Source of the DNA: Erythrobacter sp.
GTDB lineage: Bacteria; Pseudomonadota; Alphaproteobacteria; Sphingomonadales; Sphingomonadaceae
NCBI GenBank assembly: GCA_009993605.1
Contig: JAACTB010000016.1
Span: 1-64,000, forward strand
DNA: 64,000 nucleotides
Direction of reading: 5' to 3'
Part shown: positions 26,293-27,385 of the stretch, one piece after another
How positions within the stretch are numbered: position 1 is the first letter of the stretch
Layout: the number at the start of each line of letters is the position of its first letter
Program-made: the position numbers and the translations under genes
Notes under the pieces: generated by a model
The model's input: only the letters and a program-made list of their open reading frames with translations
Told to the model about the DNA's origin: nothing
The model's database searches: none

Positions 26293-26715
26293 ATGCCGCA
26301 AGTCCAACCCCCTTCCGCGACCGATGCAACCGCAAAGGCCCTTGCGATGAGCGGCGCCGACTCGACCGACAAGAGCGCGCTGCTCGACCTCGTCCTCTCG
26401 CACCTCGACGACGACCAGGCGCAGGATGTCGTCACCATCGATCTCGAGGGCAAAAGCTCGATCGCCGATTACATGGTGATCGCCTCGGGCCGCTCGACGC
26501 GCCAGGTCGCCGCGATCGCCACGAAGCTGGCGGAAAAGGTCAAGCAGGCGGGCTTCGGCCCGGTGAAGCTGGAAGGTCTGCCCGCCGCCGACTGGGTGCT
26601 GCTCGATGCGGGCGACGTGGTGGTGCATCTGTTCCGACCCGAAGTGCGCAGCTTCTATAACCTGGAACGCATGTGGGCCTTCGGCGACGCGCCGCCCGTG
26701 GCGGGAATGGCGTAG
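26293..26715 (+). CDS. rsfS: Ribosome silencing factor RsfS
   Basis: Binds ribosomal protein uL14 and blocks subunit joining when nutrients are scarce. The 140-residue protein carries the family core: DIAQDVV-like DDQAQDVVTIDLEGKSSIADY, IASGRSTRQVAAIA, EGLPAADWVLLDAGDVVVHLF, and FYNLERMW near the C-terminus. ATG 26293 gives a short polar lead; ATG 26347 (MSGADST) is possible. A palindrome-rich gap follows before rlmH. Confidence 0.92.
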   Translation: MPQVQPPSATDATAKALAMSGADSTDKSALLDLVLSHLDDDQAQDVVTIDLEGKSSIADYMVIASGRSTRQVAAIATKLAEKVKQAGFGPVKLEGLPAADWVLLDAGDVVVHLFRPEVRSFYNLERMWAFGDAPPVAGMA

Positions 26716-26734
26716 GTTTTCGAGTTGTGTTTTT

Positions 26735-26948
26735 CGAACTCGCCTCCGCGAGTTCGTCCTCGGTGCTGTTCCTCCCTTCGGTCGGGCACCTGCGGGGCGC
26801 GCGGTCGCGCTTGCGGTCCGCTGGCCGCGGACCGTTCCCGGCCAAACCTGTCAGTGTTGTCGCGGAGCACGGGCCGCAGGCCCGCAAGGGCGACCGCCCG
26901 CCCGCAGCGCCGTAGGCGCGAGGATATCGCACCCGCGGAGGCGGGTGC
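26735..26948. repeat. Cluster of six short hairpins between rsfS and rlmH
   Basis: Within 214 bases there are successive inverted repeats: 8-bp arms at 26735-26742/26749-26756; 5-bp GGTGC/GCACC at 26762-26766/26786-26790 enclosing a CCC/GGG pair; 8-bp at 26814-26821/26827-26834; 6-bp at 26870-26875/26879-26884; 5-bp at 26907-26911/26915-26919; and 8-bp at 26929-26936/26941-26948. Except for the second, loops are only 3-6 bases. It occupies nearly all of the 250-base gap in an otherwise tightly packed operon. It looks like a REP/ERIC-like mosaic repeat or a structured intercistronic RNA. No second copy is seen in the window. Confidence 0.7.
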
Positions 26949-26965
26949 GCAAACAAAGGTTCTCC

Positions 26966-27385
26966 ATGCTCCTACACATCATCGCTCGCGGAAAGATCGC
27001 TCGCTCGCCCGAAGCGGAGCTGGTGGCGCGGTATGAGAAGCGGGTTACTTGGCCGTTCAAAGTAACCGAGCTGCCCGAGACGGGCGGCAGGATCCCCGAC
27101 CCCTTGAGCCCCCATCGCACCGTCCTGCTCGACGAGCGGGGCAGGGACCTCACCTCGCGTGAATTCGCGGGCGTTTTGGAACGCTGGCGCGACGAGGGCG
27201 TGCGCGAGGCGCGTTTCGTTCTGGGTGCGGCGGACGGACATTCGCGCGAGGAGCGTGAGGAGGCCGACCTGCTCGTCGCCTTTGGGAAGGCGACCTGGCC
27301 GCATCTTATGGCGCGCGCCATGCTGGCCGAGCAGCTCTATCGTGCGACCACCATCGTCGCGGGTCACCCCTATCATCGCGACTGA
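26966..27385 (+). CDS. rlmH: 23S rRNA (pseudouridine(1915)-N(3))-methyltransferase RlmH
   Basis: SPOUT-class methyltransferase that modifies pseudouridine 1915 in helix 69. The length of 139 residues is close to the family norm of ~155. The C-terminal trefoil-knot sequence is clear: FVLGAADGHS, then ATWPHLMARAMLAEQLYRA and the terminal GHPYHR. ATG 26966 has AAAGG six bases upstream, right after the hairpin cluster. The open frame extends upstream, but that part is only repeat sequence. Confidence 0.94.
   Translation: MLLHIIARGKIARSPEAELVARYEKRVTWPFKVTELPETGGRIPDPLSPHRTVLLDERGRDLTSREFAGVLERWRDEGVREARFVLGAADGHSREEREEADLLVAFGKATWPHLMARAMLAEQLYRATTIVAGHPYHRD

Follow-up and report, generated by a model that had tools for sequence, protein, structure and literature searches.

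A dispersed multi-hairpin repeat behind genes of Erythrobacter and its relatives, with an inverted pair between rsfS and rlmH

Paired hairpin units in the rsfS-rlmH gap

The window (the whole 64,000-nucleotide stretch of Erythrobacter sp. DNA analysed here) carries rsfS and rlmH on the same strand, separated by 250 bp between the rsfS stop codon (26713-26715) and the rlmH ATG (26966). At least eight small hairpins can be read in this gap, which bears out the six inverted repeats, most of them with tight loops, of the original prediction, and the 250-nt segment has a predicted minimum free energy of -141.9 kcal/mol vs -115.5 (sd 5.4) for 200 dinucleotide shuffles, none of which was as stable (z -4.9). 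Two of the hairpins are perfect, with 9 bp each (26735-26756 and 26928-26949), and form the outer ends of two units that together make an inverted pair, unit A in sense (26729-26814) and unit B in antisense (26884-26955). The features are listed below with scores from two covariance models, R1 (built from 36 A-type units) and R2 (built from 99 matches).

26293-26715, + strand: rsfS, the gene upstream, with 26293 and 26347 as alternative starts; Pfam PF02410 on 26347-26712
26729-26814, + strand: unit A, with T-rich end, hairpins 1-3 and the conserved TCCTCG, CTGCGG and CTTGC; R1 96.0 bits, R2 95.4 bits
26735-26756, + strand: hairpin 1, 9-bp stem with loop CTCC (from sequence and two-sided changes)
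26762-26790, + strand: hairpin 2, outer stem GGTGC/GCACC and a small inner stem (from sequence and the 36-unit alignment)
26799-26810, + strand: hairpin 3, GCGC-GGTC-GCGC (from sequence and the 36-unit alignment)
26815-26833, + strand: hairpin 4, 3' of unit A, GGTCCGC/GCGGACC (as read in the sequence)
26834-26870, no strand: spacer between the inverted units, weakly conserved in aligned copies
26871-26883, - strand: hairpin 5, GGGCC-GCA-GGCCC (as read in the sequence)
26884-26955, - strand: unit B, antisense to rsfS and rlmH; R1 57.9 bits, R2 69.9 bits
26888-26899 and 26907-26919: further small hairpins in unit B (as read in the sequence)
26928-26949, - strand: outer hairpin of unit B, 9-bp stem, + strand loop GGAG (from sequence)
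26966-27385, + strand: rlmH, downstream gene; Pfam PF02590

Hairpin 4 is discernible in most of 15 aligned long copies of the element. The window gave no Rfam match above the curated gathering threshold, and no promoter-like match was found at the rsfS-rlmH gap. GC-rich hairpins directly behind stop codons are what an intrinsic (Rho-independent) terminator of rsfS would provide, but the T-run of the units precedes hairpin 1, and on the + strand no terminator-like site was found in 26600-27100, the single match lying on the - strand inside rlmH. Because the gap lacks such a + strand match, ordinary intrinsic termination is very unlikely.

A second idea, that the outer loops present a Shine-Dalgarno-like sequence, came out weak. 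The loop of hairpin 1 reads CTCC in 47 and ATCC in 12 of 67 clear hairpins of one set, and in 57 and 47, respectively, of 117 of the second, so that a match to the Shine-Dalgarno or anti-Shine-Dalgarno sequence is not well conserved; an anti-Shine-Dalgarno loop was rejected on this ground. The GGAG loop lies ~25 nt 5' of the rlmH ATG, beyond the usual distance of a ribosome binding site, and from its sequence AAAGG at 26955-26959 would be better placed to bind ribosomes for rlmH.

Copies, anatomy and spread of the repeat

The gap segment belongs, with near certainty, to a family of non-coding repeats dispersed over the genome. When used as a BLAST query on the host genome, it gave 60 matches at E<=10, of which 11 span at least 199 bases at 79-100% identity (own copy counted) and a twelfth stands at 73%. 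In the same genome, R1 detects 35 units at E<=0.1 and R2 detects 36 at E<=0.01. The BLASTN copy count proposed with the original prediction thus finds the segment repeated, and the plainer reading held in reserve there, a stretch unique to this site and without covariation, does not apply: the segment is repeated and its stems covary.

Within the genus, 39 of 41 sampled genomes have a BLAST match at E<=0.001, and all 41 have at least one unit by R2 at E<=0.01 (marginally so in G003 and G018), with 1-36 units per genome at that threshold. Across the order, matches at E<=0.001 were seen in 56 of 246 sampled genomes, of which 55 belong to the same family as the window and one, a weak case (G117), to another; this survey scored at most 18 candidates per genome under stricter filters, which makes its absences soft. 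No paper on this repeat was found in the open-licence literature, searched largely without full texts. The RepRanger paper names Erythrobacter cryptus in a table (PMC12306157), and another study reports REPs inside genes of 'E. lithoralis' (PMC3733652).

A unit measures 70-90 nt, contains three to four hairpins and occurs alone or in inverted pairs. From the outside in, it consists of TTTGTTTT, hairpin 1 (8-9 bp, loop mostly CTCC or ATCC), TCCTCG, hairpin 2, CTGCGG, hairpin 3 (4 bp, loop often GGTC) and CTTGC. In long copies, the T-rich ends and outer hairpins of the two sides resemble each other, and whole hairpin variants differ between matching sites. A pattern search returned 77 candidates, from which a set of 36 units (A2) was assembled, after removal of lookalikes in coding regions, of L008 (a unit truncated on its left) and of units whose hairpin 2 is of another kind; an imperfect hairpin 1 was no ground for removal, so that the set is not selected for a perfect hairpin 1. 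A joint alignment of A and B units (A1), in which the shorter B hairpins were misregistered, was kept out of the counts.

Two further forms were observed. A third type of unit starts with CTCAAGCGC and has the same inner hairpins (L005:444-524, L037:1341-1434 and the L068 junction); the models capture it partly. At L029:1439-1529 (G000:C1:449245-449343), hairpin 2 holds an extra palindrome, CCCGGAACAAGTCCGGG, which looks like a nested repeat.

Placement behind genes and sharing of positions

Placement relative to genes was analysed in 100 regions around the best-listed matches from 21 genomes, a non-random sample in which related genomes are not independent; neighbouring genes were called by a simple codon-usage method that had the window as its training set, which leaves start positions and part of the calls approximate. 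These regions hold 169 units at E<=0.01, ten of which overlap a called gene. A sense gene lies upstream of 114 units, and 62 of these have their first base no more than 15 nt from its stop codon, +3 nt being the commonest distance. When the test is confined to the 105 units that have a sense gene upstream, two known neighbours and no overlap with a called gene, this count of 62 compares with 11.9 expected and a maximum of 24 in 2000 random placements within the same gaps. The preference has exceptions: among the 168 units whose upstream neighbour is known, 54 face the start of a gene and not its end. By sequence reading, some units also lie directly behind apparent tRNA 3' ends (CACCATTTTT).

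Among the stop codons of genes directly followed by a unit, TAG stops are enriched (28/65 vs 52/255 for other genes at the same loci; odds ~3, Fisher p 3.5e-4, related genes not collapsed) and TAA stops are depleted (6/65 vs 51/255; p 0.046). GTAG REPs often supply TAG stops, according to PMC3733652.

The units fall into 110 sites, 42 between convergent genes, 56 between co-directional genes, ten between divergent genes and two with an unknown neighbour. Most sites consist of a single unit (56) or a plus/minus pair (48), the others being one tandem pair and five groups of three units; in all 48 plus/minus pairs the plus unit comes first and the two face inward. Between convergent genes, 8 of 21 doublets lie within 20 nt of both genes, and single units take the orientation of the nearer gene in 15/17 cases. 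Single units between co-directional genes are in gene sense 17 times and opposite 13 times.

The many sites between convergent genes (42/110) would suit an element that acts as DNA at gene ends, as a cruciform or as a site for gyrase or a nucleoid protein that manages supercoiling behind transcribed genes, a role that PMC3733652 mentions as proposed for E. coli REPs. Such an element is also consistent with stem changes that run mostly from Watson-Crick to Watson-Crick pairs with few G-U steps, and with the equal folding of both strands (both described below). The gene orientation kept by single units between convergent genes speaks against such putative binding, and we consider this explanation quite unlikely.

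At the rsfS-rlmH junction itself, a unit of the family is present in 25 of the 30 genus loci that were fetched, and in 23 of them there is one in sense (RlmH was found in 40/41 genus genomes, and the loci are the best 30). The five others comprise gaps of 12 bp (G009) and 73 bp (L075) and three others, 113-134 bp long, in which no clear match is seen; with 5/30 loci showing no recognisable unit, the unit is not required at this junction. Among named loci that have both genes, 31 of 79 have a junction unit at E<=0.05, the two samples overlapping in strains, and the gap shrinks to 8-29 bp in several named relatives. By RlmH, the closest named relatives are Erythrobacter sp. HI0063 and Qipengyuania species. 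The statement in the original prediction that these genes are closely spaced in relatives is therefore right for some genomes, down to the 12-bp and 8-29-bp gaps, but not for the 25 genus loci that bear a unit. A truncation of RsfS by the element was rejected for this site: the RsfS C-terminus is alike in relatives with and without a unit.

The recurrence at 25/30 genus loci is an argument for a cis-regulatory RNA specific to rsfS-rlmH, such as a riboswitch or attenuator. However, units of the same family lie behind many unrelated genes and the window is without an Rfam match; because its copies are dispersed, a junction-specific RNA is disfavoured to the point of being highly improbable.

Many positions are shared between species. 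Thirteen of 16 host loci match a unit-bearing fetched locus of G038 and seven match one of G023, which is not a blind rate because these loci were fetched for carrying matches. The unit-bearing stretches of one host locus, L302, are absent in G038, and two others (L311 and L314) match no fetched locus. The 80 gene ends with a unit within 45 nt fall into 52 protein-similarity groups, 17 of which occur in more than one genome, including a DUF3035/CorC-type convergent pair, ribosomal protein L34, a FabA-like protein and RsfS, and several of the groups extend across GTDB genera. In the few locus comparisons, whose empty sites were poorly resolved, no target duplication was resolved.

These observations bear on the possibility that the family is non-autonomous selfish DNA, a palindrome spread by an unnamed enzyme and tolerated just outside genes without any function in the transcript. 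Inverted pairs with like T-rich ends, copy numbers that range from 1 to 36 units per genus genome, variant hairpins at matching sites and the absence of a strand bias in folding all agree with it. On the other side, positions are common to species and some even to genera, units keep gene-sense orientation and a preferred distance from the stop, the few comparisons resolved no target-duplicated insertion, and the search for a mobilising enzyme, which covered Y1 transposases, gave none. We regard this reading as possible but doubtful. The proposal of a mosaic mobile repeat of the REP/ERIC kind accordingly survives as to kind (dispersed, in inverse pairs, with variant hairpins) and fares less well as to mobility, most tested host sites being common to a close relative.

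Locus L302 (G000:C7:81400-88800) shows several features of its own. It has four element sites in ~4.5 kb, among phage-type portal, capsid and tail-tube genes that we take to be possibly a gene transfer agent, and G065 likewise has a unit behind the capsid gene. At L302:4570-4700, a tandem repeat of ~42-bp units runs in frame, and overlapping matches suggest that it is shorter in G023 and G038 by ~126 bp (three units).

Stem covariation, known repeat classes and the proposed role

The covariation check proposed with the original prediction gave a strong signal. In the 36 aligned units, two-sided changes occur in 11 of 20 stem pairs, with 88 two-sided cells vs 23 in shuffles (0/500 as high), and the signal is abolished when stem partners are slid against each other. 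Hairpin 1 has two-sided changes in seven of its nine pairs, and one pair of hairpin 3 is changed on both sides in 18/36 units. Among 94 distinct model-aligned units, two-sided cells number 343 vs 93 in shuffles, in an alignment fitted to the model structure.

The path of these changes was followed in 31 pairs of units matched by site, type and side (rearranged sites left out; three-way comparisons not independent). Fifty stem pairs went from one Watson-Crick pair to another and ten changed one-sidedly via G-U, while 31 broke one-sidedly and nine changed on both sides with one form non-Watson-Crick. Divergence is equal in stem bases (13.8%) and unpaired bases (14.1%). Orthologous A units are on average 84% alike (15 pairs) vs 77% for host paralogous ones (18 units), and full concerted evolution was rejected as the whole story because orthologous units exceed paralogous ones in likeness.

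Folding of the sense strand was not found to be better than that of the antisense strand: sense was favoured in 97 of 206 cases and antisense in 106, with three ties. Composition-matched shuffles favour sense folding in 156/206 cases, and the minimum free energy folds contain 566 G-U pairs in sense vs 145 in antisense, a difference that composition may explain. The model stems thus keep their pairing with no evident G-U tolerance. Since the changes show no preference for G-U steps and the sense strand folds no better, covariation alone is no proof of RNA function; we argue that the lack of strand bias and the scarcity of G-U pairs in these stems speak against strong selection on RNA pairing. 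We infer instead that stems are renewed at the DNA level, by template switching in a hairpin or by exchange with other copies. Such copying would keep stems matched, so that the covariation would in part be a product of the element's mode of mutation; selection for DNA structure, or for RNA pairing too, may also lie behind the matched stems.

The family works like REP/BIME repeats, with a longer multi-hairpin unit, and stands outside both tagged REP super-families. It has the general features of REPs, being intergenic, near ORF 3' ends and often dimeric. Like the present units, CGTC REPs of Alphaproteobacteria have 8-9 bp stems, 4-5 nt loops, inverted dimers and sometimes structured spacers, often lie <20 bp from ORF 3' ends and have no transposase, as described by Di Nocera et al. 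2013 (PMC3733652). In S. wittichii and P. entomophila, that closeness of <20 bp is reported for the majority of convergent REPs. CGTC REPs are described there as single 20-40 bp palindromes with tags, whereas the present unit spans 70-90 nt with three conserved hairpins. The combination of an unpaired terminal CGTC tag, stems that open with A-T pairs and a CCA-like tail that marks that class (tag position as worded in the text of PMC3733652) is not found here, where the 5' side is T-rich and not every stem opens with A-T pairs. CGTC does occur 3' of hairpin 1, with its CG inside the stem, in 40/67 and 57/117 clear hairpins of the two sets, and two CGTCAT-type patterns gave no match in the window. 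G-T stem pairs, reported as frequent in REPs by the same paper (PMC3733652), are rare in the present model stems.

GTAG REPs and REPINs resemble the family in forming inverted pairs of intergenic palindromic units, again according to PMC3733652, but the present unit consensus is without a GTAG tag. A link to Y1 (RAYT) transposases was rejected: Y1 was not detected in the host, occurs in two of 41 genus genomes and is missing from the other 39, and the 1.5-kb flanks of the three Y1 loci hold no unit at E<=0.01. With regard to a MITE, the two sides of the element end in comparable T-rich stretches and outer hairpins, and the empty sites were too poorly resolved to show a target duplication. E. 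coli BIMEs and the intergenic mosaic elements of rhizobia are mosaics of hairpin modules behind genes, as are the present units.

Altogether, the hairpin stack near the stop codon, its orientation with the gene and its retention at the same genes point to a structure at the gene end that would terminate or protect transcripts, and here separate rsfS from rlmH, as the likeliest role, to which we assign a probability of roughly 45%. A role of the gap segment in transcript processing or attenuation, as the original prediction had it, is possible. In such a structure, the hairpin stack behind the stop codon would block 3'-to-5' decay of the mRNA and could fix the 3' ends of transcripts that Rho or pausing brings to a stop. 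The rsfS mRNA would then be stabilised and uncoupled from rlmH, and between convergent genes two facing units would serve both genes. Known REPs are equally close to gene ends, without a proven common function (PMC3733652). A more specific account, in which a lineage-specific 3'-end module of Erythrobacter-type bacteria has long been kept close behind the stops of many housekeeping genes, replaces intrinsic terminators, sets mRNA ends and has its stems rematched by hairpin-templated DNA copying, is tentative and rather unlikely to hold in full.

With this family, the REP class gains a longer multi-hairpin unit that has neither the known tags nor a transposase, is tied to stop codons and keeps its positions for long. 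The sites that differ between species make it directly testable whether such repeats act as RNA, as DNA or not at all. Where bacterial repeats covary strongly, templating at the DNA level may be the source, and such covariation is by itself not proof of a functional RNA.
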